A stretch of DNA of 64,000 bases, taken from contig PLCA01000003.1 in NCBI GenBank assembly GCA_003134685.1, positions 1-64,000 of the forward strand, written 5' to 3'. The DNA comes from Gemmatimonadota bacterium. Its GTDB lineage: Bacteria > Gemmatimonadota > Gemmatimonadetes > Gemmatimonadales > Gemmatimonadaceae. Positions 33,426 through 47,661 of this stretch are shown one piece after another. The position numbers were made by a program, and so were the translations under genes. Below the pieces are notes generated by a model, which was not told the DNA's origin, did no database searches, and was given only the letters and a program-made list of their open reading frames with translations. How positions within the stretch are numbered: position 1 is the first letter of the stretch; each line of letters begins with the position of its first letter.

Positions 33426-35051
33426 TCACTTAAGGTTCGGCCTCGCTTGGACGCTCCAGTCGGCAAGGTCTGCCCACCACGCGTCCGGACGGATTCCCAC
33501 TGGGTGAATCCGCTTCGACACCCCGTGCACGTTGCGTAGCTCGTAGATCCACATAGCGGGCGCGTCGTCGGTAAGAATTCGGTAGGCGCGCCTATACAGC
33601 TCGACGCTCCGCGAAGGGTTCATCTCGTTGATCGCGCTGTCGACCACCGCGTCGAAACCTGGATTCCGGTACGACGTCGCGTTGTAGCCGCCCTTCTTGA
33701 TCTCGGAGCTCGCCCACTCCTCGCGCACCGATGAAGGCGTAGGGTCGATGTGCCAGGCGTTCAGAAGCGCGTCGAACTTCCGTTCTTCCATCCGGCCGCC
33801 GAACGTGTTTAGCTCCAGCTGATCGATGCGGACATTCGCGCCCGCCTTTCTCCATTGCTCCTGCAGCAGGACGGCGATCCTGGTTCGGATCGCGCTGGAG
33901 CTCGGGACCATGAGCGCGAACGCGAGCGGGGTTTTTCCGCGGGAGCGCAGACCGTCGGCCCCGCGCTTCCAGCCCAGCGAGTCGAGCGTGCGCGCCGCTT
34001 GGTCGGGATCGTATCGAATGCCGATCGTCGTGTCGGTAGTCGGCATGATTCGGGTGGCGGGCCCGTGAGCAACGAGGCCCAGAGTATCGAACACGTTGCG
34101 CACGATCGCGGATCGATCGACGGCCATCACGAGCGCCCGGCGGGTTTCGCGATCCCCAAAAATGGGATGCGGGCCCGTGTTCTTCGCGTTGCGCAGGTTG
34201 AACGCAGCGTACCCGTAGTCGAGACTTCCCGGTGACACGATGATGTCGGCACCCTTTGCCCTCGCCAGCGGGATCACGTCCGGCTTTACGACATCGAGGA
34301 AATCGGCCGTCCCGCCAAGGAATCGCACCGAGGCCGTCTGATAGTCCGGCGCCACAAGCCAGATCGCCTGATCGGCAATCGGTCTGCCTCGGTAATTTCC
34401 GCTGTCTGCGCGGAGGACAATGCGCGCCCCGCGATCCCACGCCGCGAACCGGAATCGTCCGCTACCCACGGGGGCGCGCGCGAAGCCGCTCTCGTGGAGG
34501 GCGGCCGGTGCCGTTTGGCGAAGCAGGTGGGCAGGCAGAATCACCACCGGACTCGCGACTTTGAAGAACGCGTCCGGAGTACGTCGGTGAAACCACACCA
34601 CTGCGGTCAGCGAATCGCGCACCGATACCGAATCGACGTTGTCGAGATTCGAGCCGAGCGGCGAAGCGAGCGAAGTGTCCTTCACCAGCTGAAACGTATA
34701 TCGCACATCCTCGGCGCTCACCGGAACGCCGTCGTGCCAACGAGCCCGCGGATTCAGGTGGAAAGCAACCGACTGTGAATCCGCCGACCACTGCCAGCGA
34801 TCCGCCAGTCTCGGCGTGAATCCGGCGTCGCCTACGGTGTTGAGCGATGGACCGATGTCGGCCAGGTTGTCGAACACCTGATCTGAGACCTGCTTCCCCA
34901 TGAGCGTCAGGGTGAGCGGGGGAAAAAGAATGTCAGCGTCGGCCGCCGAAGAAAGTACGATCGTGCCACCTACGTGCTTATCGCCCGAACACGCGCTGAG
35001 AAGAAAGAACGCCGAGAGGGTGATCGAGGCACCGCGTCGTCCATGCATCAT
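33426..35051 (-). CDS. ABC transporter substrate-binding lipoprotein (SBP family 5)
   Basis: A 541-aa exported solute-binding protein of the oligopeptide/dipeptide/nickel type (OppA/DppA fold). It has a signal peptide with lipobox LLSAC (Cys21). The body has DRWQWSADSQSVAFHLNPRARWHDG, VPVSAEDVRYTFQLV and TRRALVMAVDRSAIV, all family hallmarks. No permease or ATPase genes are nearby, so it either works with a transporter elsewhere or acts as a sensor. It overlaps the HD-GYP gene by 4 nt and so belongs to the operon activator - HD-GYP - binding protein. That placement suggests a role in sensing a peptide-like ligand, which is inference. Confidence 0.88.
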   Translation of the reverse strand: MMHGRRGASITLSAFFLLSACSGDKHVGGTIVLSSAADADILFPPLTLTLMGKQVSDQVFDNLADIGPSLNTVGDAGFTPRLADRWQWSADSQSVAFHLNPRARWHDGVPVSAEDVRYTFQLVKDTSLASPLGSNLDNVDSVSVRDSLTAVVWFHRRTPDAFFKVASPVVILPAHLLRQTAPAALHESGFARAPVGSGRFRFAAWDRGARIVLRADSGNYRGRPIADQAIWLVAPDYQTASVRFLGGTADFLDVVKPDVIPLARAKGADIIVSPGSLDYGYAAFNLRNAKNTGPHPIFGDRETRRALVMAVDRSAIVRNVFDTLGLVAHGPATRIMPTTDTTIGIRYDPDQAARTLDSLGWKRGADGLRSRGKTPLAFALMVPSSSAIRTRIAVLLQEQWRKAGANVRIDQLELNTFGGRMEERKFDALLNAWHIDPTPSSVREEWASSEIKKGGYNATSYRNPGFDAVVDSAINEMNPSRSVELYRRAYRILTDDAPAMWIYELRNVHGVSKRIHPVGIRPDAWWADLADWSVQARPNLK

Positions 35052-36727
35052 GCCGTGCTTCTCATAAAAGGCGTGCTTCCCAGGGTGGCCGTGCTTCCGT
35101 TTGAGTTGCTTGCGGCGCGATGGGGAATCGAATGCACAGTTGCGTTTGCGTCGGCCCAGTCGAGAAAAGTCTCGAGGAGATGTGGATCGAACTGTCCTTT
35201 CTGGGCACGCATCTCTTCGGCGGCGCGCGTGTGCGACAGGCAGTCTCGATACGCTCGCGCGGTGGTCAGCGCATCATAAACGTCGGCGACGCAGAGAATC
35301 CTTGCGGCGAAGGGAATCTCCTCGCCGGCGAGACGGTCGGGATATCCGTTGCCGTCCCACCGCTCGTGGTGGTTCCGGATGATCGCACGTACATCTCCCG
35401 GGAAATCAATGTCCGAGACGAGTTCCAGCCCCGCCTCCGGGTGGCGCTTCATGATCGCCCATTCCTCATCGGTGAGTCCGCCCGCCTTGTTCAGCACCTC
35501 GGTGGGGACGATGATCTTCCCGATGTCGTGGAGCAGCGCGCCGAGCCGGAACCAGAAGAGCGAGCGCGAATCCATTCCGGCGCTGTCGGCGAGCACACAG
35601 GCAAAGAAAGCCACGCGTTGGCAGTGGCCCTGGGTGTAGTGGTCCTTGCTTTCGATCGAGTCGCCCCATTGGTGCGCCATCTCCAGGAATCGCGCCTCCA
35701 GCGCGGCGTTTCGCCGCTCCACCTGCGCGACGCGGTGTTGTGCCTTCAATCGCGAGTAAAGAGCGTGCGACTGATTGAGGTTGGCAAGCATCTCGCGATG
35801 GCGCTTCTGGGTCCAGTAAAGCTCGGCGAGCTGCTCGGTCACGTCGGCCTTGAGCAGCAGGTCCTCTCCTTCGTCCGCACACTCGCACGCCCGCCCGAGA
35901 TACTCGGCCGCCTTGACGTAGTCGCCTCGCTCGCGCGCGATCACTCCGACGTGCCTGAACACCTCGCCCCGCCACGACGGGGCAATTTCTCCTGTCAGCG
36001 CAAGCAGGGGCTCGACGCGATCCATCGCTTCGTCGAACCGTCCCGTCGCGATGCAGAGCTGCACCTGGTTGAGTGCGACGTTGAGCTGATTGGGGTGATC
36101 GTGCTCCTCGCCGAAGGCGTGCTCGGCTTCGGTGTACGCAGCTTCCGCGCGCTCGAGCTCGCCAAGATCGGTGTAGGCCAGCCCGATGTTGTTGAGAACC
36201 TGCGCGGCTTGGTCGCGCATGCCGAGCGCGCGATAGCCGTCGAGGCTCAGATGGAACGCCTCGAGAGCCCGAGGCATGTCTCCGCGAATGCTGGCCACGG
36301 TTCCAAGATTCTGGTCGATCATCGCAAGCGCCTCGGCGTCACGGATGGACGCCGCCGTAAGTCTCGCCTCGGAGTACATCGATTCAGCGCGATCCAGATC
36401 TCCCCCGGTCTGGTGGACTATCGCGACGACGTTGAGCGCCTGGGCAATTGCGGATTGAGAGCCTGCCTGAGTCGCGGCGGCAACCGCCGCTTCGAGAACA
36501 TCTATCGCCGCGCCGCGATTGCCCTGCTCAAGGTAGGCTCTTCCCAGCCACCGTAGAGCCGAGAGTCTGGTGTGATCATTTGCGAGCGGGTTCCGTATCA
36601 GCGCTTCGTAACGAACCGACGCTTCGCTCCAGCGGCCCTCGCGCTCCGCCAGTTTTGCCTCCTTAATCAGGGCTCGTATCTCGAGTGGCTCTCCTTCTTC
36701 GGTCCGAGAAGTGGAACGCAGGCTCAT
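35048..36727 (-). CDS. TPR/HD-GYP protein, probable c-di-GMP phosphodiesterase (copy 1)
   Basis: A 559-aa cytoplasmic protein with no receiver domain. Residues about 15-320 are tetratricopeptide repeats (for example ALRWLGRAYLEQGNRGAA, QVLNNIGLAYTDLGELERAE). A short coiled-coil linker follows (RLKAQHRVAQVERRNAALEA). The HD-GYP domain has HDIGKIIVP at about residue 400 and HHERWDGNGYP at about 455-465, so metal-binding and GYP residues are intact and activity on cyclic di-GMP is expected. The TPR part presumably senses a protein or peptide and controls the enzyme. It is coupled by 4-nt overlaps to the sigma-54 activator upstream and the binding lipoprotein downstream. A close paralogue is at 39872-41521. 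Confidence 0.88.
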   Translation of the reverse strand: MSLRSTSRTEEGEPLEIRALIKEAKLAEREGRWSEASVRYEALIRNPLANDHTRLSALRWLGRAYLEQGNRGAAIDVLEAAVAAATQAGSQSAIAQALNVVAIVHQTGGDLDRAESMYSEARLTAASIRDAEALAMIDQNLGTVASIRGDMPRALEAFHLSLDGYRALGMRDQAAQVLNNIGLAYTDLGELERAEAAYTEAEHAFGEEHDHPNQLNVALNQVQLCIATGRFDEAMDRVEPLLALTGEIAPSWRGEVFRHVGVIARERGDYVKAAEYLGRACECADEGEDLLLKADVTEQLAELYWTQKRHREMLANLNQSHALYSRLKAQHRVAQVERRNAALEARFLEMAHQWGDSIESKDHYTQGHCQRVAFFACVLADSAGMDSRSLFWFRLGALLHDIGKIIVPTEVLNKAGGLTDEEWAIMKRHPEAGLELVSDIDFPGDVRAIIRNHHERWDGNGYPDRLAGEEIPFAARILCVADVYDALTTARAYRDCLSHTRAAEEMRAQKGQFDPHLLETFLDWADANATVHSIPHRAASNSNGSTATLGSTPFMRSTA

Positions 36728-37722
36728 GACGAGGCGAGGATTGTGCGACGCGCGGAGCCCTCGTCGCGGAGCTTTCTGGTCAGCGTCGGCCGCGAGATTC
36801 CGAGGATGCGTGCGGCCGCGCTCAGATTTCCGCCGGTGAGGCCAATCGTGGTGTGGATCGCCTCGTCGACGATCGCCTGAAGTGACTTGCCTTCTGCGGG
36901 TATTCGAATCACGCCGCCGGCGGGAGTTTCGACCAAAGGAATGAACGACCGTCGCTGCAGCGACAGATGGTGGGGCTGAATCACGTCGCCTGTGCAGACA
37001 ACCACGGCGCGCTCGATGACGTTCTTCAGCTCGCGAATATTGCCCGGCCAGCGGTGTCTTTCCAGCGCGCTGACGGAATCCTGGCCTAGGCGCAGGTTCG
37101 CGCGGCCTTCTATTTCCGCGTGCCGCTTGACGAAGTAGTGGGCGAGAATCGGAATGTCCCCGTCTCGCTCACGGAGCGCCGGAAGCTCGAGTCGCGCGAC
37201 GTTCAGCCGATAGAAGAGATCGGCTCGAAATCGATTGTCGGCAACGGCCGACTCGAGGGACGAGTTGGTGCCCGCGATGATGCGGGCCGCCAGTGCACGC
37301 TCTTCGGAGCCTCCGAGCCGGCGAAAGCGCCGGTCTTCGACCACGCGCAGCAGCTTCGCCTGAAGCTTGAGCGGGAGTTCCGCGACCTCGTCGAGAAAAA
37401 CGGTGCCCGAGCCCGCGACTTCGAACAGCCCACGCTTGAGGATGCGCGCATCGGTGAAGGCGCCGGGCTCGTGCCCGAACAGCTCGCTTTCCAGCAGCGT
37501 CTCAGGGATGGCCGCGCAATTGATCGCGACGAACGGCTCCGCCGCGCGCGAGCTCGCCGCGTGGAGGCCGCGGGCGAAAAGCTCCTTGCCAGTCCCCGTT
37601 TCTCCGACGAGCAAAACTGTCATGCTGCGACTCGTCGCTACCTGGGTCGCCAGTGCTATGACTTCGCGGATGGCCGCGCTCTCACCGATTACGTGGGAGT
37701 CCCAACGATCCGCCGATGCCAA
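36724..37722 (-). CDS. Sigma-54-dependent activator without sensor domain
   Basis: A 332-aa AAA+ enhancer-binding protein. Walker A GETGTGKE lies at about residues 40-47, the sigma-54 contact loop reads GAFTDA (87-92, where GAFTGA is commonest), and Walker B is GTVFLDEV (about 106-113). The C-terminal Fis-type helix-turn-helix includes GGNLSAAARILGISRPTLTRKL. No receiver, GAF or PAS domain precedes the AAA+ core, so control must come from another protein or from expression level. The start is TTG at 37722; I found no better upstream ATG or GTG. It is first in the operon with HD-GYP copy 1. Possible targets are the -24/-12-like sites before the lipoprotein genes at 39692 and 44147. Confidence 0.9.
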   Translation of the reverse strand: MASADRWDSHVIGESAAIREVIALATQVATSRSMTVLLVGETGTGKELFARGLHAASSRAAEPFVAINCAAIPETLLESELFGHEPGAFTDARILKRGLFEVAGSGTVFLDEVAELPLKLQAKLLRVVEDRRFRRLGGSEERALAARIIAGTNSSLESAVADNRFRADLFYRLNVARLELPALRERDGDIPILAHYFVKRHAEIEGRANLRLGQDSVSALERHRWPGNIRELKNVIERAVVVCTGDVIQPHHLSLQRRSFIPLVETPAGGVIRIPAEGKSLQAIVDEAIHTTIGLTGGNLSAAARILGISRPTLTRKLRDEGSARRTILASS

Positions 37723-37931: not shown

Positions 37932-38954
37932 CTAGCTGGGAAGCGAGGCAAGCAGAGTGTTGATCTCGGCGGCCTCGTGCTGGGCGCCCACATCCTCGAA
38001 AGACTCGGCCGCTTCCCGCCACGCCAGACGGGCATCCGCGGAGTTCCCCAACGCCCTCGAAGTCTGCCCGAACTCGCGGAGCATCTCGGCCTGAAGCAGC
38101 CGGTCCTCGAGACCCTCCGCTTCGAAGATTCCGATCCGGAGTGTCGCAATGCTCTCGTGGAACGCCCCTCTTTCGCGCTCGATTCTCGCCCGGCACTTGA
38201 GCGCTTCAGCGATCGTGAGATGGTCTCCCCGGGTTTGCGCTCCCGCGAGGGAGGACGCGCATGCTTTCTCGGCATCGTCGAGCTTTCCGACCGCCACCCA
38301 AGCCTGGGCCAGGTTGAGGACAAGTATGCTCTCGACGAGCGAATCATGGCGCGATTTCGCGATCGTCAGTCCCCTCTCGAACGTCTCGATGGCGCGCGAA
38401 TAGTGACCGAGCTTGGTGTAGAGCATGCCGATGTTGTTGAGCACCCACGAGACGGCCTCGTCGTCATTCGCACTCTCGAAGGCGCCGAGGCTGTTCGAGT
38501 AGCGAGCCTCGGCGGCGACGAAGTTGCCACGCATGTTGAAGAGGACGCCGCGGTTCTGCTCGATCATCCCGAGCAGGCGGACATCGCCCGCCTTCCCCGC
38601 ATACTCCGCGGCTTGCATGTAGAGCTTCTCGCTCTCGACGAGATTGCCGCGGCGCTGCGCCACGATGGCAAGGCAATTGAACCCGTGCGCCTTGCAGCTG
38701 ATTGAGCCGCACTTTTCGGCGTGAATCAGGCTCTGCGTGTAGCAGCGATAGGCGGTCTCGGTTTCACCCTGCTCGCGGTGAAGCGTCCCCTTCCACCGGA
38801 GAGCGTCGGCGAGACTAGCCAAGTCGTGCTCGCGGTCGAGAGCCTCGATCGCGTCGTCGTAAAGTCCGAGTGATCTCGCAGTGTCGCCAGCCCTCTCGGC
38901 CTCGCGTGCCTGCTCGACGAGTCGACGCGCGCCTCCCGAATCAGGCTGCGTCAC
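37932..38954 (-). CDS. TPR repeat protein (copy 1)
   Basis: A 340-aa soluble protein composed almost entirely of tetratricopeptide repeats. Typical units are ADALRWKGTLHREQGETETAYRCYTQSL, CLAIVAQRRGNLVESEKLY and WVLNNIGMLYTKLGHYSRAIETFERGL. There is no signal peptide, membrane helix, DNA-binding or enzymatic domain. TPR solenoids bind peptides or protein partners, so it may be an adaptor. It follows the lipoprotein gene by 75 nt and precedes the activator operon by 209 nt. Its paralogue at 41665-42690 has the same neighbours, which makes it a fixed part of the duplicated cassette. The N-terminal repeats also resemble those of the HD-GYP proteins. Confidence 0.85.
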   Translation of the reverse strand: MTQPDSGGARRLVEQAREAERAGDTARSLGLYDDAIEALDREHDLASLADALRWKGTLHREQGETETAYRCYTQSLIHAEKCGSISCKAHGFNCLAIVAQRRGNLVESEKLYMQAAEYAGKAGDVRLLGMIEQNRGVLFNMRGNFVAAEARYSNSLGAFESANDDEAVSWVLNNIGMLYTKLGHYSRAIETFERGLTIAKSRHDSLVESILVLNLAQAWVAVGKLDDAEKACASSLAGAQTRGDHLTIAEALKCRARIERERGAFHESIATLRIGIFEAEGLEDRLLQAEMLREFGQTSRALGNSADARLAWREAAESFEDVGAQHEAAEINTLLASLPS

Positions 38955-39029: not shown

Positions 39030-39692
39030 CTACTTGCCGGCACCACCGGTACTACAGCCTTCGACGCACACCCAGACGCCCGAGATGAGGATGTAGCGGG
39101 AAAAGTGGTTGAGTATCCAGACTTGGCTCTCGGCGACCGGCTGCGCGCCGTAGTAGAAGGTCGTGGCAGCCTCAAGTTCGGCGGGCAATGCAGAACCGTC
39201 GAAACCGATCTGCTCGCTTCCGTCCGAAAGGTATGCTGATCTTACGCCGTTGCCGACCGACGTCCCATAGGTCATGGTCGTACGGAGACCCTGAACCGCG
39301 GTTACTGGAAGCGCGAACCGCAGGCCATGGGGAAGCATGTCGTAGACGACGAACGAACCGGCCCTCGCGACGATCGTCATCGCAGTGGGAGCGCTCAAGG
39401 CGCCGGCCGGTATCGTCATCGAGAAGTCTGCGCCGGGCAGGGATAGCGTAGCCCCCTCGGGTCCGACCACGGCAGAGACGCTCTGGTCGACCTTCGAATG
39501 GCTCGGGCCCCACATCACTGCTTTGGCGATCGAGCCACCCGCCACTAGCGCAAAGGATGCTCGGAGAGTAAGTGTCGGGGGGAGATGCTTGGATTGGATT
39601 GGACTGGTTGAGCCGGTGTAATCGCCGCAAGAGACAACGGCTACGGCGCTCACAGCCAGCGCGAGGTTTCGAATCATGCGGTGACTTAACAT
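39030..39692 (-). CDS. ZU5-like lipoprotein with HFSRY motif (LP1)
   Basis: A 220-aa exported lipoprotein: signal peptide with Cys22 in VVSCGDY. Residues about 73-200 resemble a ZU5-type beta domain (VGPEGATLSLPG, then FSMTIPAGALSAPTAMTI, YDMLPHGLRFALPV). The strand WILNHFSRYILIS begins at about residue 192, and a 20-residue tail with two Cys follows, which its two paralogues lack. HFS is the tripeptide where metazoan ZU5/FIIND domains self-cleave; whether this happens here is unknown. The ATG at 39692 has GAGGTGG upstream. A sigma-54-like -24/-12 site lies 49 nt before the start. No named function is known to me. Confidence 0.8.
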   Translation of the reverse strand: MLSHRMIRNLALAVSAVAVVSCGDYTGSTSPIQSKHLPPTLTLRASFALVAGGSIAKAVMWGPSHSKVDQSVSAVVGPEGATLSLPGADFSMTIPAGALSAPTAMTIVARAGSFVVYDMLPHGLRFALPVTAVQGLRTTMTYGTSVGNGVRSAYLSDGSEQIGFDGSALPAELEAATTFYYGAQPVAESQVWILNHFSRYILISGVWVCVEGCSTGGAGK

Positions 39693-39871: not shown

Positions 39872-41521
39872 TCAATCGGCAGCGCCTGACGCAAAAATTG
39901 CCATCCGCTGGGGTGTTGGCCTGCCCGGAATATCAGCTGTTTCCGCCCAGGTGAGGAATATCCCCAAGAGCTCAGGGTCGAATTGGCCGGTTGAAGCCCG
40001 CATAATCTCGGCTGCGCGGGCATGGGTCAGTCCCGGCCGATATGACCGGGTTGTAGTTAGCGCGTCGTAGACGTCGGCGACGCAAAGGATTCGGGCGGCA
40101 AACGGAATATCCTCGCCGCTCAGTCCATCGGGGTAGCCGCAGCCATCCCACCGCTCGTGATGGTTGCGTATGATCGCGCCGATGTCTCCCGGAAAGTCGA
40201 TCTCGGCCACGAGCTCGAGCCCGGCCTCGGGGTGGCGTTTCATGATCGCCCATTCCTCGTCGGTGAGCTTGCCCGGCTTGTTCAGAACCTCCGTGGGGAC
40301 GATGATCTTCCCGATATCGTGCAGCAGCGCGCCGATCCGGAACCAGAAGAGCGATCGCGAATTGAATCCGGCGCTGTCGGCGAGCACGCAAGCGAAGAAG
40401 GCGACGCGCTCGCAGTGGCCCTGGGTGTAGCGATCCTTGCCTTCGATCGAATCACCCCACTGTTTTGCCATCTCCAGAAAACGCGACTCAAGCGCCCCAT
40501 TCCTCTTCTCCACCTGCGCGAGGCGATGCTGCGCCTTGAGCTGTGTGTAGAGCGAGTGGGCGTCGTTGAGCCGATGAAGCATGTCGCGATGCCGCTCCTG
40601 CGCCCAATAGACTTCCGCGAGCTGCTCCGACACGTCCGCTCGGAGGAGGAGATCGCCGCTCTCCAGCGCGTGCTGTTCCGCCTTGAGCAGCTGGTCGGCG
40701 GCTTGCGCGAAATCGCCGCGCTCCCGCGCGATGACGCCGACGTGCCGCAAGACTTCCCCGCGCCACGGGGCGGCGGTGTCCGTCGCCACGGCCAGCAGCT
40801 GGCGGCATTGTGCCAGCGCCTCGTCGTAGCGCCGCCCGGCGATGTAGAGCTGCACCTTGTTGACGGCGAGATCGAGCTGGCGCGCGTGATCGCCGTCCTC
40901 CTCGAACGCGCGAGCGGCCTCGTCGTACGCCTTCTCAGCATCGGACAGCTCGCCGAGCTCCATGTAGGCAAGCGCGATGTTGTTTAGCACCTGCGCTTCG
41001 TGGTTGCGCATCCCCAGCGTCTGGTATCCCAGATGACTCAGGCGAAACGCCTCGAGAGCGCCGCGGAGGTCTCCGCGGATCATCGCGACGGTGCCGAGGT
41101 TCTGATCGATCATGGCAATGAGCGCGGCGTCGCCCGCAAGCTCCGCCTTGTCCCGCGCGGCCGCGTAAATCGTCGCTGCCTGATCCAGATCGCCCGCGAC
41201 CTGATAGACAATCCCGACGACGTTGAGAGCCTGGGCCACCGCCGGCGGAGAACCGATGACATCTGCCGACGCTACGGCCGCTTCGAGGACATCGAGCGCG
41301 GCGCCGCGGTTGCCTTGCTCAAGGTAGGCGCGGCCGAGCCATCTGAGCGCGGCGAGACGAGTCGTGGCCATGGTATCGGGATCCCGCACGAGACTCTCGT
41401 ATATCGCGCACGCGTCGGCCCAGCGTCCATCGCGCTCGGCCTGCTTCGCGCGATCGATGCTTTCTCTGACGGCGGAGGATTCCACCGCCTTCAATTCGAC
41501 TGTGTGTCTTTGGTTGCTCAT
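39872..41521 (-). CDS. TPR/HD-GYP protein, probable c-di-GMP phosphodiesterase (copy 2)
   Basis: A 549-aa paralogue of the gene at 35048, alignable along its whole length. TPR repeats fill about residues 20-320 (ALRWLGRAYLEQGNRGAALDVLEAAV is nearly the same in both). The same coiled-coil linker follows, then HD-GYP with HDIGKIIVP at about residue 401 and HHERWDGCGYPDGLSGEDIPF near 455-475. The active-site residues are intact. It lies 143 nt after the TPR gene copy 2 and 179 nt before LP1. A weak sigma-54-like site (GG-N10-GC at 41632-41645) is present upstream. The C-terminus differs from copy 1 and has no low-complexity tail. Confidence 0.88.
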   Translation of the reverse strand: MSNQRHTVELKAVESSAVRESIDRAKQAERDGRWADACAIYESLVRDPDTMATTRLAALRWLGRAYLEQGNRGAALDVLEAAVASADVIGSPPAVAQALNVVGIVYQVAGDLDQAATIYAAARDKAELAGDAALIAMIDQNLGTVAMIRGDLRGALEAFRLSHLGYQTLGMRNHEAQVLNNIALAYMELGELSDAEKAYDEAARAFEEDGDHARQLDLAVNKVQLYIAGRRYDEALAQCRQLLAVATDTAAPWRGEVLRHVGVIARERGDFAQAADQLLKAEQHALESGDLLLRADVSEQLAEVYWAQERHRDMLHRLNDAHSLYTQLKAQHRLAQVEKRNGALESRFLEMAKQWGDSIEGKDRYTQGHCERVAFFACVLADSAGFNSRSLFWFRIGALLHDIGKIIVPTEVLNKPGKLTDEEWAIMKRHPEAGLELVAEIDFPGDIGAIIRNHHERWDGCGYPDGLSGEDIPFAARILCVADVYDALTTTRSYRPGLTHARAAEIMRASTGQFDPELLGIFLTWAETADIPGRPTPQRMAIFASGAAD

Positions 41522-41664: not shown

Positions 41665-42690
41665 TCAGCCGGGCAGTTGGTCCAGCTGGGCCTCGACCTC
41701 GGCTATCTCCTGGCTGGCGCCGATTGCCTCGTAGGAATCGACGGCCTCGCGCCATGCTGAACGCGCGGCTCCAGCGTTCCCCACGGCGCGCGAGATCTCG
41801 CCCAACTCACGTAGCATCTCAGCATGCAGGAGGCGATCTTCCGCGCCCTCCGCCTCGAAGATCGCGATGCGAAGAGTGGCGATGCTCTTGTCCAGCGCGC
41901 CGCGCTTGCGCTCGATGGCCGCGCGAATCTTGAGCGCGCCGGCGGCGCTCAGATGGTCGCTGCGCCGCTGCGCCTGCTCGAGCGCCATCGCGCAGAACTT
42001 GTCCGCGGTATCCAGCCGTCCGAGCCCCATCCAGACCTCGGCGAGGTTGAGCGTAGTCACGTTCTCGACGACGGCGTCCCCTCGATTCACCGCAATGGCG
42101 CGTCCTCGCTCGAGGTGACCGCGCGCTTCGTCAAAGTTTCTGATCTTGGTGTGCAGGATTCCCAGGTTGTTGAGGACCCATGACATGGGCTCCGCATCAC
42201 CCGCGACTTCGAAGGCGCCGAGGCTGTTGGAGTAGTACGCGGCGGCCTGGCCGAAGTCGCCGCGCATGCTCGCCAGCACACCACGATTCTGCTCGATCAT
42301 TCCGAGAAGTCTCGAGTCCCGGGCTCTCTGGGCGAACTCTGCCGCCTGGGAGTAGAGCCGCTCGGTCTCCTTTTGATCGCCGCGGCGCTGGGCGATCGTG
42401 CCAAGGCAGTTGAGTGCGTGTGCCACCGCCGACTCGGAGCCGATGAGCGTCGCCTTCTCCAAGCTCTTCGTGTAGCATCGGAAAGCCGACTCTGTTTCGC
42501 CTTTCTCTCTCAGCAGTGTTCCTTTCCATCGCAGCACGTCCGGCAGAAACGGATCGAGGCTGTCTTCCGCGAACTGTGCCAAAGCGTCGTCATAGAGACT
42601 CTGAGCCTTGGCAGTCTTCTGATGCTGCTCGGCTACCCGCGCCAGCTCGACGAGCAGCCGGGCGCGCTCTACGTCATCAGATTTCTGCAT
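41665..42690 (-). CDS. TPR repeat protein (copy 2)
   Basis: A 341-aa tetratricopeptide protein, full-length paralogue of the gene at 37932 (shared blocks include DVLRWKGTLLREKGETESAFRCYTKSLE, LLGMIEQNRGVLASMRGDF and WVLNNLGILHTKIRNFDEAR). It is cytoplasmic by absence of a signal peptide, and no catalytic or DNA-binding domain is seen. It lies 62 nt after LP2 and 143 nt before HD-GYP copy 2, so the order lipoprotein, TPR, HD-GYP is the same as in the other copy. A role as peptide or protein receptor is inference from the fold. Confidence 0.85.
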   Translation of the reverse strand: MQKSDDVERARLLVELARVAEQHQKTAKAQSLYDDALAQFAEDSLDPFLPDVLRWKGTLLREKGETESAFRCYTKSLEKATLIGSESAVAHALNCLGTIAQRRGDQKETERLYSQAAEFAQRARDSRLLGMIEQNRGVLASMRGDFGQAAAYYSNSLGAFEVAGDAEPMSWVLNNLGILHTKIRNFDEARGHLERGRAIAVNRGDAVVENVTTLNLAEVWMGLGRLDTADKFCAMALEQAQRRSDHLSAAGALKIRAAIERKRGALDKSIATLRIAIFEAEGAEDRLLHAEMLRELGEISRAVGNAGAARSAWREAVDSYEAIGASQEIAEVEAQLDQLPG

Positions 42691-42752: not shown

Positions 42753-43415
42753 TCAACCTGAAGCTAGCATGTAGCGGGAAAAGTGGTTGAGCTGCCAGGT
42801 CTCGACCTCGGGTTGCTGCTGGTTCCCGTTCGGAGCGGAGAAGATCGTCGTGGTCTCGATTTCTAGAGCCTTGAGAATTCCGCTGAGATCCAACAGGTCA
42901 TGCGAGAAGTAGGCACAGAACGAATTCAGGGCAAGCGGAGTTCCATAGACCGCCGTATTCCTCAGACGCTGCGTGACGACTACTGGTTTCGCGAATCGAA
43001 GGCCATGCGGTTTCATGTCATAGGACACGTAACCCGTCTCGTCCGACGTGATCGTGATTGCGGTCGAGTTGGACAGTGCGCCCCGCGGGAAGGTGATCGT
43101 GAAGTCCGAGCCGGGTATCGCCAGCGTGCCGCCATTGTAGCCAATCGCGGCCGAAACGGTGCGAACCTCATTGACGTGCGTCGGAGCCCACTTGACTCCG
43201 TGGACGTCAATGCCGTTCGGATCTGTAGCGAATCCGATGACCCGGATGACCGAGCCAAGGAGCCCGGTCACCGCGCCGAGAAGATCCGAAATCAGCCCAT
43301 CCTGGGCTTTTGTCGGTGCAGCCGCAGGAGCGGTCGGTGAATAGTCCGCGCAGGAGAGCGCTACGAAAGTCGTAAGGACGAGTACGAAAGAGCGGACAAA
43401 TCTGGAGCGGATCAT
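42753..43415 (-). CDS. ZU5-like lipoprotein ending in HFSRYMLASG (LP2)
   Basis: A 220-aa exported lipoprotein (signal peptide, Cys22 in ALSCADY). After a linker with a hydrophobic LLGAVTGLLGSVIRVIG segment comes the ZU5-like domain: VSAAIGYNGGTLAIPGSDF, TITFPRGALSNSTAITI, YDMKPHGLRFAKPVVV. The protein stops exactly at HFSRYMLASG, so cleavage between Phe212 and Ser213 would free an octapeptide. It is a paralogue of LP1 and LP3. Downstream on the same strand are TPR copy 2 and HD-GYP copy 2. I do not recognise a sigma-54 site in the 105-bp gap upstream, so it may be co-transcribed with LP3. Confidence 0.8.
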   Translation of the reverse strand: MIRSRFVRSFVLVLTTFVALSCADYSPTAPAAAPTKAQDGLISDLLGAVTGLLGSVIRVIGFATDPNGIDVHGVKWAPTHVNEVRTVSAAIGYNGGTLAIPGSDFTITFPRGALSNSTAITITSDETGYVSYDMKPHGLRFAKPVVVTQRLRNTAVYGTPLALNSFCAYFSHDLLDLSGILKALEIETTTIFSAPNGNQQQPEVETWQLNHFSRYMLASG

Positions 43416-43520
43416 CGGAAAACCCAGGGGTTGGTGTTGTCTTATGAAGCGGTCAGCGGAAGACTTCCTGGAGCGATCAGGGCGCGGTACTCGGGTCGAA
43501 GCTTGGTACTGGTCGTGTGA

Positions 43521-44147
43521 TCAACCGGAAGCGAGCATGTAGCGCGAGAAGTGTCTTATCGTCCAAACCTGCGCCTGTGGAAGGTGCGGGGAGAGCGGGG
43601 AGAAAATCGTCGTCGACGGCTCGATCTCCAGGACCGGGACTTTTCCACTGAGCTTGACGTTGTCATCCGCGATGTACGCCGCGTAGAGTTGATTGCGTAG
43701 CGGCTCCCCGAAGATCGACGTGGTGTTCAGGACCTGCGTAGCGGTGACGTCCTTGAGGAACCTGGTCCCGGTCGGTTCCATCTTGTAAGCGACGTATTGG
43801 TCGTCAGAGGTGATGGTGACCCTGATCGGACCGGTGACCGCGCCAGCCGGGAAGGAAACCGTAAGACCCGTCTCGGGAATCGAAATCGTGCCGCCCGACT
43901 GGTCGATGGTCCTGGAGACTCTTACGACGTCCTTGTGCTGCTTCTTCCACCAGATGGCCTTGAGGTCCAGCTTGCCGACATCGGAAACAGCGCCCGGGAG
44001 GCGCTGCGCGGCAGATTGGAAGCTTGCCGGTGCGGCAATCGTTGTGGCGGGCGCGGATGGGGCTGATATCCCGGCCTCGGAGCACGACGCGATGACGAAG
44101 GCGCCGAGGACAACGGCGAGGGAACGAACGAGACCGAATCGGGACAT
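43521..44147 (-). CDS. ZU5-like lipoprotein ending in HFSRYMLASG (LP3)
   Basis: A 208-aa exported lipoprotein (Cys22 in IASCSEAG). The domain has SRTIDQSGGTISIPETGL, TVSFPAGAVTGPIRVTI and YKMEPTGTRFLKDVTATQ, matching LP1 and LP2 strand for strand. The chain terminates HFSRYMLASG, identical in the last ten residues to LP2 although the rest has diverged, so this tail is under strong constraint. It is the first gene of the minus-strand cluster. A sigma-54-like promoter lies 48 nt upstream, with a perfect 14-bp palindrome further up at 44269-44282. Confidence 0.8.
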   Translation of the reverse strand: MSRFGLVRSLAVVLGAFVIASCSEAGISAPSAPATTIAAPASFQSAAQRLPGAVSDVGKLDLKAIWWKKQHKDVVRVSRTIDQSGGTISIPETGLTVSFPAGAVTGPIRVTITSDDQYVAYKMEPTGTRFLKDVTATQVLNTTSIFGEPLRNQLYAAYIADDNVKLSGKVPVLEIEPSTTIFSPLSPHLPQAQVWTIRHFSRYMLASG

Positions 44148-44536: not shown

Positions 44537-46105
44537 ATGTCAATTGGAACTCAGAGAGCGCGGCTCTTCGTAGCCGTTATCACCGCCTTTGCAGGCGGAC
44601 TAATCGTCGCATCCGGTCTCAACTGGACCAAGCTCGGATTTGCGCAATCTCGTCCAGCATCGGCAATCGTCCAGCCAATTGCCGATGCAAGCAACGCATT
44701 CGTTGCGATCGCGAATAACGTCACGCCCGCGGTCGTCTCGATTGAAGTAATCAGCAACCCCAAGACCGGCACGAGTTCGCAACGCGGACGCGCACAGCAG
44801 CTTCCGCAGGGAGTTCCGCCGGGCATGGAGGATTTCTTTCGGCAGTTCGACATCCCGCAGCAACAGCGCCCGATGCGCGGTCAGGGCTCCGGCTTCATCG
44901 TGACGTCGAGCGGTTACATCCTTACCAACAACCACGTCATCACCAACTCCGATCGTGAGACGATTGCCGACAAGGTGACAGTGAAAATGCTCGACCACCG
45001 CGTCTTCACAGCGAAGGTGGTTGGGCACGATCGCACGACCGACGTCGCCGTGATCAAGATCGACGGCAACAATTTCCCCACTGTTTCGCTCGGCAACGAC
45101 GTAACTTCGCGAATCGGCGAGTGGGTGCTCGCGATCGGCAATCCGTTGGGTCTCGAGAATACAGTGACGGCTGGAATCATCAGCGCCAAGGGCCGCAGCC
45201 TCGCCGAGCTGATGAATCCGAACGGCACGAATCAGTACGCCATCAGCGATCTGATTCAGACCGACGCCGCCATCAATCCGGGCAACTCGGGTGGACCCCT
45301 GGTCAACTCGCGTGGCGAAGTGATCGGAATCAACAGCGCCATCGCGAGCCCAACGGGCTACAACGCCGGCTACGGTTTCGCGATTCCAGTCACACTTGCG
45401 AAGCGCGTGATGGACCAGCTGATCGCCAATGGCCGGGTGCGTGTTCCGGCGCTGGGCATTGGCATTGATGATGTGAGCCCGGAAGATGCCGCGGTAGCGG
45501 GCGTGAAGGACATTCGTGGCGTGCTGGTTCGCAACTTCCCAACCGAAAACACCCCGGCGCAGAAAGCCGGCCTGCAGCCCGGTGATGTCATCATCACCGC
45601 GGATGGCCAGCCGGTCGACCGCGTCAGCACGCTCCAGAGAATCGTTCGCAATCACAATCCTGGTGAAACGATCGAGATCGAGGCAATGCGTTACGGACAG
45701 CGCAAGACGTTCCGGGTAACTCTAATGGAGGCACCCGACCAACAGGTTGCGCAGGCTGACGCGCCGGCCCCGGCGTCTTCCGGCGGAATTCTGCACCCTG
45801 CGCTCGGGATTTCCGTCGCGCCGGTGAGTCCGGAGATTGCGGCGCAGGCGAGATTGACTCCGCCGGTGCGCGGTGTCCTCGTTTCTGACGTGACTCCGGG
45901 TGGGCCGGCGGATCAGAAGCTCGCGCCGCACGACGTGATTACCGAGGTGCTGTTTCCGTTGCCGCGTCGTGCGATCAACACGCCTGCCGAATTTCAGCAG
46001 GTGCTGAGCCGGCTCAAGGACGGCGATTACGTCAGCCTAAGCGTCTACTCCCTGGATACCCGGGATCACGCGCCTAGAATCGTGAATCTGCAGATAGGCA
46101 AGTAA
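44537..46105 (+). CDS. HtrA/DegP-type periplasmic serine protease
   Basis: Envelope protease and chaperone acting on misfolded exported proteins. The 522-aa chain has an N-terminal membrane anchor or signal (about 10-30). The trypsin-like domain carries the triad His133 (TNNHVI), Asp169 (TTDVAVIK) and Ser251 (PGNSGGPL). Two PDZ domains follow, with VLVRNFPTENTPAQKAGLQPGDVI in the first and GVLVSDVTPGGPADQKL in the second. Length and two-PDZ layout match DegP/DegQ. It is monocistronic with a strong terminator, and divergent from the LP3 cluster. Confidence 0.95.
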   Translation: MSIGTQRARLFVAVITAFAGGLIVASGLNWTKLGFAQSRPASAIVQPIADASNAFVAIANNVTPAVVSIEVISNPKTGTSSQRGRAQQLPQGVPPGMEDFFRQFDIPQQQRPMRGQGSGFIVTSSGYILTNNHVITNSDRETIADKVTVKMLDHRVFTAKVVGHDRTTDVAVIKIDGNNFPTVSLGNDVTSRIGEWVLAIGNPLGLENTVTAGIISAKGRSLAELMNPNGTNQYAISDLIQTDAAINPGNSGGPLVNSRGEVIGINSAIASPTGYNAGYGFAIPVTLAKRVMDQLIANGRVRVPALGIGIDDVSPEDAAVAGVKDIRGVLVRNFPTENTPAQKAGLQPGDVIITADGQPVDRVSTLQRIVRNHNPGETIEIEAMRYGQRKTFRVTLMEAPDQQVAQADAPAPASSGGILHPALGISVAPVSPEIAAQARLTPPVRGVLVSDVTPGGPADQKLAPHDVITEVLFPLPRRAINTPAEFQQVLSRLKDGDYVSLSVYSLDTRDHAPRIVNLQIGK

Positions 46106-46446: not shown

Positions 46447-46812
46447 TTAGACGCAGGTGATCACGCCGTTGGTCATGTCGCAAACCTTCGCTGACTGCGA
46501 GTGCGTTGCAGTTCCGCTCCATGAAGGCGGCGGGCCGGGGAGGTTCGTGATGACGACCGTGACATTCTGCGACGGGCTGAAGCCCTGCAGAGGAGCCAGG
46601 CTGGTGGCAGTTCCACCGAAGTACGCGCCGTTGTTGTCCGCGGCGTACTGCTCTTCGTAGGTCGCCATGTTGCGCAGGTCAGACTTCATCGCTGCCACAT
46701 ACGCCTTGTCCTTCGTGTTCGCGAACTTAGGAATCGCAATCGCGGCAAGAATGCCGATGATGACGACCACGATCAAAAGCTCAATAAGGGTAAAACCCTT
46801 TTTATTGCTCAT
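46447..46812 (-). CDS. Type IV pilin / type II pseudopilin
   Basis: A 121-aa prepilin from the ATG at 46812 (AGGGAG ribosome site upstream). The frame is open 16 codons earlier, but that segment is not leader-like. The class III leader MSNKKG is followed by the hydrophobic helix FTLIELLIVVVIIGILAAIA, with cleavage expected between Gly6 and Phe7 and Glu5 of the mature chain present. The globular part has MKSDLRNMATYEEQYAADN and ends with a disulfide-candidate pair of Cys (VCDMTNGVITCV). It should be processed by the prepilin peptidase at 9646. No other pilus genes are adjacent; the ATPase at 58 kb may belong to the same machine. A TATACT -10-like box lies at 46885-46890 on the minus strand. 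Confidence 0.93.
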   Translation of the reverse strand: MSNKKGFTLIELLIVVVIIGILAAIAIPKFANTKDKAYVAAMKSDLRNMATYEEQYAADNNGAYFGGTATSLAPLQGFSPSQNVTVVITNLPGPPPSWSGTATHSQSAKVCDMTNGVITCV

Positions 46813-47661
46813 TTGTGTCTCCCTGAAGCGTTGAATAAATTGGGTGGAATGCACTTGCATTCACCTGTGGTAAGTACGCCTCAGTATAGAGAGGCAAGGC
46901 ACAGTAAGGCACTCTCGGGACCGCAAATCGGCGCTGGCCGTAACTCGTGTATTAGCAATGACTTATACGGTTGAGCACGATCAATGTAGGAGCCGGAATC
47001 CGCGTAGACTGCAAAACCCGCCGCGATTTGCCTGCCCTGATTCGAGGGCACGGGATCGAATTGCGTCGGCGCCGACTTAACTTCTCGAGGGCCGAGTAAA
47101 ACGTCCCAGGAAGTCGCTCCAACCCTTCGCGCTCGTCATCCATGACTGTTGGTTGGCAGCGCGAAGTCTCGCCTCTGTCAGGCCAACGGTGCGACGTGCA
47201 CGTGGCTTGGCGCCTGGATCAGGCTCGTTGATCTTGGCAAGCGTTTTTTCCTTCTTCAGCTCGGTTGCACCCGCATCTCTAACATTCCGCGAGCCGAATA
47301 GCCTTTCTCTCAGATTTTTTTTCATCAGTCTGTTTGGTGGTTGATTGTCATGCAGATGTCGTCGTCCCTCTGGGGAGACGATTCATCGAGCAACCCGGCA
47401 ATTGCACTTGAGCTGCGTTCCCGAAGCCCCTTCGCGAAAGAGAGGCGTCGCCAGTAGCGCCGGATGCTGCCTCGAAGTCGAGGCGAATCGGGTGGGCGGG
47501 CTGGTGGAAAGTCCCGCGGGTCAGATACCCGATGATTCAAGCTCACCGGTTCCTCGCGCAATAGCAATGCCGCCGGACACCAGCCCACTCTTGGTGTGCT
47601 TGTATCCGTTTGCTTACTTTTCGCGGAAGCAAAACGCGATCTTCCTGAACGGAGACCAACT
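46813..47661. other. 848-bp region of low coding density
   Basis: Between the pilin and the 56-aa ORF. Apart from the pilin promoter region and the doubtful 82-aa ORF at 47077-47325, none of the frames shows recognisable protein. Overlapping frames at 47325-47738 (-) and 47345-47665 (+) look like chance openings. Confidence 0.5.
47077..47325 (-). CDS. Doubtful small basic protein (82 aa)
   Basis: A reading frame with ATG at 47325 giving MKKNLRERLFGSRN and a Lys/Arg-rich, mostly disordered chain (KKEKTLAKINEPDPGAKPRARR). A plausible helix follows (GLTEARLRAANQQSWMTSAKGWSDFLGRF). No clear ribosome site and no known family. The composition would suit a nucleic-acid-binding or surface-associated small protein, but it may be a chance frame. 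It is divergent from the 56-aa ORF. Confidence 0.3.
   Translation of the reverse strand: MKKNLRERLFGSRNVRDAGATELKKEKTLAKINEPDPGAKPRARRTVGLTEARLRAANQQSWMTSAKGWSDFLGRFTRPSRS

Follow-up and report, generated by a model that had tools for sequence, protein, structure and literature searches.

The gene cluster described here raises the question of how a lipoprotein of the cell envelope could convey information to soluble, cytoplasmic regulators in a cluster that encodes no transmembrane protein. The cluster is located in the window, i.e., the complete stretch of 64,000 nucleotides of a Gemmatimonadota bacterium that was analysed, and contains three paralogous lipoprotein genes, designated LP1, LP2, and LP3. 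The first-pass annotation of this DNA had proposed that these proteins carry a ZU5 domain that cuts itself in a His-Phe-Ser (HFS) motif, thereby releasing the octapeptide SRYMLASG, which would be read by the TPR proteins encoded next door, as in RRNPP systems; a conserved last beta strand was its plain alternative.

An ancient autoproteolytic domain common to GAIN, ZU5, and Nup98 was reportedly described by Liao et al. in 2014. Zhang et al. (2012, PMC3482391) have also proposed that ZU5 domains cleave themselves in bacterial toxins and in large proteins of the bacterial surface, and as a general idea self-cleavage is therefore not new. In the literature as far as searched, demonstrated self-processing of ZU5/GAIN domains in bacteria was not found, the process being predicted from sequence, nor was a prior description of the lipoprotein/TPR/HD-GYP/sigma-54 cluster.

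This paper describes the LP1-LP3 lipoproteins, their predicted fold, and the genomic context of their homologues. The data revealed that lipoproteins ending shortly after an HFS motif are a real and conserved class. Comparison of the modelled domain with known self-cleaving domains makes cleavage at HF|S likely; a role of the tail as a pheromone is a possibility. In two bacterial phyla the genes of such lipoproteins adjoin regulators of a peptide-binding type, and the lipoproteins may thus be part of a hitherto undescribed signalling system that relies on self-cleavage.

Results

Gene cluster and lipoprotein tails

The genes are encoded on the minus strand and, in the direction of transcription, are ordered LP3, LP2, TPR2, TPR-HD-GYP, LP1, TPR1, sigma-54 activator, second TPR-HD-GYP, and OppA/DppA-like protein (Table 1), the last three with successive 4-base overlaps. 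The regulatory proteins of the window's cluster contain no transmembrane helices, and chaperone, usher, or anchor genes were not recognised within it. The sigma-54 activator has neither a receiver nor a sensor domain, as if it were controlled by a partner. Genes for OppC-type permeases are present elsewhere in the same genome.

Table 1. Positions of the cluster genes, putative cleavage sites, and flanking genes in the window.
Feature	Position	Strand	Remarks
OppA/DppA-like solute-binding lipoprotein	33426..35051	-	541 aa; SBP_bac_5 E 1.7e-66
Second TPR-HD-GYP protein	35048..36727	-	559 aa; 4-base overlap with each flanking gene
Sigma-54-dependent AAA+ activator, Fis-type HTH, without receiver domain	36724..37722	-	
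TPR1, soluble TPR protein, immediately 3' of LP1	37932..38954	-	340 aa
LP1, third paralogue	39030..39692	-	220 aa; 15 residues beyond last strand
LP1 HFSRYILISG	39078..39107	-	putative scissile bond F197|S198
TPR-HD-GYP protein, c-di-GMP phosphodiesterase type by family	39872..41521	-	549 aa; HD_5 E 1.5e-38
TPR2, soluble 8-TPR protein, immediately 3' of LP2	41665..42690	-	341 aa; pLDDT 94.8
LP2, lipoprotein with C-terminal ZU5/GAIN-type domain	42753..43415	-	220 aa; Pfam ZU5 19.7 bits
LP2 final ten codons, HFSRYMLASG	42756..42785	-	putative scissile bond F212|S213
LP3, lipoprotein with C-terminal ZU5/GAIN-type domain	43521..44147	-	208 aa; Pfam ZU5 20.4 bits
LP3 final ten codons, HFSRYMLASG	43524..43553	-	putative scissile bond F200|S201
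DegP/HtrA-type periplasmic protease	44537..46105	+	
Type IV pilin-like protein	46447..46860	-	

LP1, LP2, and LP3 all carry a lipobox-containing signal peptide (VALSC, VIASC, and VVSC), and a lipobox was found in 83 of 102 terminal homologues. As the first-pass annotation had noticed, LP2 and LP3 have exactly the same last ten residues, HFSRYMLASG, and both stop there, with approximately 40% identity over the ZU5 domain; its reading of LP1 as keeping HFSRY with a longer tail was likewise borne out (HFSRYILISG, followed by 15 more residues). The ten tail codons of LP2 and LP3 display 4 synonymous and 0 non-synonymous differences, and because all 4 are silent, the tails are kept identical by selection at the protein level. 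Recent gene conversion as the origin of identical tails was ruled out for LP2/LP3 and for a lipoprotein pair in the relative G092, by 4-5 silent tail-codon differences.

Predicted fold and register with known cleavage sites

As single sequences, LP1-LP3 scored 19.1-20.4 bits against Pfam ZU5 (PF00791; cut-off 21), covering only its first 36 positions, and a profile of the family detected the ZU5 domains of ankyrin-3 (E 7.9e-5) and ZO-1 (1.9e-4) in the PDB. An AlphaFold2 model based on 33 homologues (pLDDT 90.9) ends in two strands, residues 144-156 and 159-164 in model numbering, and in this predicted structure the chain breaks between the strands at F157-S158, which correspond to the Phe and Ser of HFS. 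The fold prediction that had been suggested earlier as a check thus locates His-Phe-Ser at an inter-strand break. The model matched 4d8o in Foldseek (8.7e-6), and with VIA-align its top match was ankyrin-B ZU5 (Z 10.9, rmsd 3.6, 123 residues), with UNC5b at Z 8.3 and the GAIN domains of CD97, BAI3, BAI2, CELSR1, latrophilin-1, and GPR56 at Z 7.5-5.5; values below 8 are weak when taken alone, and the weight rests on a register that is common to several entries. By profile and by modelled fold the domain is of the ZU5 type, in agreement with the first-pass assignment.

The register was read from alignment ranges rather than from residue-level superposition. When latrophilin-1, GPR56, and rat NLRP1 were aligned with the model as cleaved chains (4dlq, 5kvm, and 7crv), each VIA-align alignment stopped at F157 of the model. 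The last residue of the cleaved chain is 837 in latrophilin-1 and 382 in GPR56, the latter being cut at 382|383. For latrophilin-1, the general base has been placed at H836 in the literature, and hence the cut at 837|838. The UNC5b alignment ends with residue 685 paired to model residue 165, which places F157 at approximately L677 if the last nine residues are ungapped, and UNC5b L677 has been equated with F296 of the F296|S297 cut of CARD8 (D'Osualdo 2011). Judged by these ranges, HFS of the predicted model lines up with the bonds that are cut in known self-cleaving domains. Moreover, a conserved Tyr is found 27-45 residues N-terminal to the His in 94 of 101 domains; in GAIN domains an aromatic residue orients the His base, full activity of latrophilin-1 requires such a residue 33 positions before its His, and the Tyr is a possible partner of the His in the LP family.

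Conservation of HFS in terminal and internal domains

Ascertainment by the motif itself was controlled for with profile A3, a version of the family profile trimmed of its final 15 residues and hence without HFS. Among 92 homologues detected in this way whose C-terminus lies no more than 60 residues past the domain end, 91 had HFS, which exceeds chance, whereas the internal domains of long proteins displayed HFS in 15, HFT in 4, and neither in 16 out of 35; about nine of these 16 read xFS, e.g., SFS. Fisher's exact test of terminal versus internal domains, with HFS and HFT pooled, gave 7e-10, which is an indication and not a probability, as the sequences are related. Internal homologues keep the remaining ZU5 signature, and because many of them have lost HFS, the ZU5 fold does not need the motif. 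HFS therefore points to a function, since the fold can lose it and the terminal class almost never does, which weakens the earlier alternative of a merely conserved last beta strand.

In a set of domains made non-redundant at a 70% identity threshold (median pairwise identity approximately 29%), all 85 domains with aligned motif columns had the H, the F, and the S, with a further 16, mostly internal, domains gapped at these columns and falling outside the 85. The residue following the Ser varied in the same set (G, R, D, E, T, S, V, N, and others), and the distance from the His to the C-terminal end ranged from 9 to 32 residues among terminal homologues. Endings of the HFSxY type are widespread among related lipoproteins. 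The clearest evidence against a strict requirement for HFS is a ZU5 lipoprotein without the motif that is encoded in such a cluster (L253 in relative G285; the same gene in L124), with ELRGFAVASG as its tail.

Distribution of the cluster

TPR or TPR-HD-GYP genes were found within 5 kb of 64 of the 67 loci encoding terminal-HFS lipoproteins, as compared to 2 of 24 loci at which all ZU5 proteins were of other kinds. Sigma-54 activators were near 20 of the 67 (1 of the 24), and OppA-like genes near 11 (none of the 24). One of the two control loci with TPR genes is L253, which is otherwise a normal TPR/sigma-54 cluster. Tandem lipoprotein paralogues, two to five in number, occur in several clusters, and single lipoproteins in many others.

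Outside this phylum, 12 of 198 genomes from the Bacteroidota, to which Hymenobacter belongs, gave matches with the motif-free profile, as did 1 of 249 from the phylum of Bradyrhizobium. A DNA pattern encoding SHFST[YF]A mostly gave unrelated matches in other phyla and served only to centre the genome searches. In the Bacteroidota, lipoproteins of the stand-alone type have endings such as HFSRYGWAK and HFSRFGFVR; most of their genes adjoin TPR genes and some adjoin sigma-54 activators, while the internal ZU5 domains lack such neighbours, a single TPR gene in the opposite orientation excepted. What had been noted in the window as TPR genes lying next door is thus a conserved association that recurs in a second phylum.

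Tail sequences and TPR partners

Lipoproteins that precede one and the same TPR gene often have common tails despite diverged bodies (LP2/LP3, G092, L200, and L213). For example, the tails of the two lipoproteins of G092 are both altered to SRYMLASD, a parallel G-to-D change, and three tandem lipoproteins in relative G320 (L213:4948-7069) have common tails of approximately 24 residues (GGYISSSGNRVP) that extend well past the last strand, with bodies approximately 46% identical in two of three comparisons. A fourth L213 lipoprotein, which has its own TPR genes, carries a different tail. In the wider set of clusters, some lipoproteins with separate TPR partners also have common tails, and with matching for family and body identity the within-genome tail excess was 4.42 versus 2.88 of 6 in family f1, and 4.24 versus 3.97 in family f2. 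These comparisons are no more than suggestive of tails that track the TPR partner; the pattern looked strong in the first clusters and became weaker with more clusters and matching.

The eight-TPR model of TPR2 matched LGN (Z 32), RapI (25.6), and NprR (23.7). Peptide binding by TPR2 is possible on the basis of this predicted fold, and as LGN ranks above Rap and NprR, the search does not discriminate.

The RRNPP systems have been characterised by a propeptide of 10-100 aa, Sec export, a receptor of 250-500 aa, TPRs, and adjacency of the two genes (PMC10075063). The earlier comparison with these systems stands for export (lipobox), for TPR proteins in the receptor size range (340 and 341 aa), and for adjacency (LP2-TPR2 and LP1-TPR1), and fails for propeptide size, the LPs being 208-220 aa. 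Membership of the RRNPP family as defined was rejected on this size, and the LP system could still work alike.

Discussion

Relation to known systems

Like the bacterial ZU5 autopeptidases of Zhang et al., the LPs are bacterial and surface-exposed with a predicted self-cleavage; the ZU5 domains of polymorphic toxins are mostly N-terminal in large RHS proteins, whereas those of the LPs are C-terminal in small lipoproteins of a regulatory cluster. The fold is shared with PIDD, NLRP1/CARD8 (FIIND), UNC5, and ankyrin ZU5, as are the position of the (H/S)F|S site before the last strand and a hydrophobic residue preceding the Ser. Unlike FIIND (ZU5-UPA), the LPs have no UPA domain, and LP2 and LP3 end 8 residues past the Phe; moreover, the former are cytosolic or receptor proteins, and the LPs are secreted lipoproteins that end after the last strand. 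The GAIN domains of adhesion GPCRs resemble the LPs in H-X-S/T before the last strand, in the register of the bond, in their extracytoplasmic location, and in the way in which the residues beyond the cut, a putative one in the LPs, contribute a strand to the same sheet. Differences are the Leu of the GPS (HL|S/T) where the LPs have Phe before Ser, the modest fold likeness (Z 5.5-7.5), and the absence from the LPs of a visible helical GAIN-A subdomain and of a 7TM receptor for the strand. The RRNPP systems (Rap-Phr, PlcR-PapR, and NprR-NprX) share with the LPs an exported precursor encoded beside a TPR-superhelix protein of 250-500 aa; unlike these, the putative LP precursor is a folded lipoprotein of approximately 200 aa, the putative outputs are HD-GYP and a sigma-54 activator, and the host does not belong to the Firmicutes.

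Proposed mechanism and alternatives

The explanation that we favour, with somewhat better than even confidence, is that the LPs form the envelope part of a TPR/c-di-GMP/sigma-54 signalling cluster and most likely cleave themselves at HF|S. LP1-LP3 would be its extracytoplasmic component, partnered by a TPR protein, a sigma-54 activator, a TPR-HD-GYP protein, and sometimes an OppA-like protein. The ZU5/GAIN-type domain, with its intact HF|S site ahead of the last strand, would cut itself between Phe and Ser via an N-O acyl shift, a step that we consider probable. The 7-8 residues beyond the cut (SRYMLASG at the end of LP2 and LP3) would stay in place as a non-covalently held strand, like the Stachel of adhesion GPCRs, and ligand, force, or proteolysis could free this strand. 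That it is released and then read by proteins of the cluster itself is a much more tentative proposal. Self-cleavage has to be weighed against the shortness of the remainder, 7-8 residues after the site, which makes its benefit questionable, against the L253 lipoprotein without HFS, and against the modest Z-scores with GAIN domains. In addition, BAI2 carries HLS and yet is cleaved inefficiently, so the HXS motif by itself is no guarantee of cleavage.

An alternative is a structural role of HFS: the domain would remain uncut, with the three residues forming a bulge ahead of the last strand, and the whole lipoprotein would sense a ligand or serve in a matrix, governed by the regulators encoded beside it. 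In the model the motif lies at such an inter-strand bulge, the best fold matches are with UNC5b and ankyrin, whose ZU5 domains function uncut, the cluster lipoprotein of L253 manages without the motif, and BAI2 illustrates that HXS/T can remain intact. We nevertheless regard this role as doubtful, as internal homologues retain the ZU5 signature without HFS, H, F, and S are fixed while the residue after the Ser is freely variable, and the register coincides with that of several self-cleaving domains. Further-reaching is the proposal of peptide signalling outside the Firmicutes, in which a self-cleaving ZU5/GAIN lipoprotein would hold its short C-terminal strand as a captive pheromone that, once freed, would be imported and recognised by the TPR proteins encoded next door, which in turn would control c-di-GMP and sigma-54 output; we consider this unlikely. 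Its RRNPP-like elaboration, with import of the self-cleaved strand by the OppA-like protein and an Opp permease and binding by the adjacent TPR proteins that set the HD-GYP and sigma-54 output, is favoured by TPR genes adjoining nearly all loci, by OppA-like genes, one of them in the cluster of the window, near 11 of the 67 loci as against none of the 24 controls, by OppC-type permeases in the genome, and by a cluster without a transmembrane protein. It is also consistent with the likeness of TPR2 to Rap and NprR (Z 24-26) besides LGN (Z 32), and with common tails on approximately 40% identical bodies before the same TPR gene, including the parallel G-to-D change in G092. Against these stand TPR folds that bind many partners, with LGN ranking above, tail sharing that, once matched for family and body identity, stands out in f1 but is weak in f2, tails of 9 to 32 residues from the His, and the absence of an OppA-like gene from most clusters. 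Moreover, the two fragments of CARD8 and of GAIN proteins remain associated after cleavage; since the fragments of these relatives stay together, release of the octapeptide needs a second step. On balance, the RRNPP-like scheme is improbable. Exchange of the cleaved terminal strand between copies, by which tandem paralogues would build a regulator-controlled surface polymer, appears highly improbable: two to five tandem paralogues occur in several clusters and cleavage would in principle make the strand exchangeable, but many clusters have a single lipoprotein, and in that of the window a search for domains recognised no gene of the chaperone, usher, or anchor kind.

If the domain does cleave itself, the LPs would provide a small bacterial experimental model of ZU5/GAIN autoproteolysis, and if the pheromone reading were true, the GAIN/Stachel principle would be joined with RRNPP logic. 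Whether or not cleavage occurs, the lipoprotein/TPR/HD-GYP/sigma-54 cluster is a conserved and widespread signalling unit, within which the decayed motif of L253 is a natural test case for the necessity of HFS.

Additional genomic observations

The genome contains a fourth ZU5-type domain (L004 / L101, contig C15, approximately 72260-72625), which is internal to a longer protein and reads HFSTY; TPR neighbours were absent from the stretch examined. Adjoining LP3 and divergent from it lies a gene for a DegP/HtrA-type periplasmic protease, followed by a type IV pilin-like gene (Table 1), and the same layout is found in relative G092. In several relatives, the TPR-HD-GYP protein of the cluster is part of a fusion protein of approximately 1600 aa, in which TPR and HD-GYP are followed by GGDEF, by an ATPase of the AAA_16/STAND-like type, and by further TPRs that make up a second such region (L158:7066-11862 and L173:7346-12184), and long homologues are also present in L163, L164, L166, and L167.
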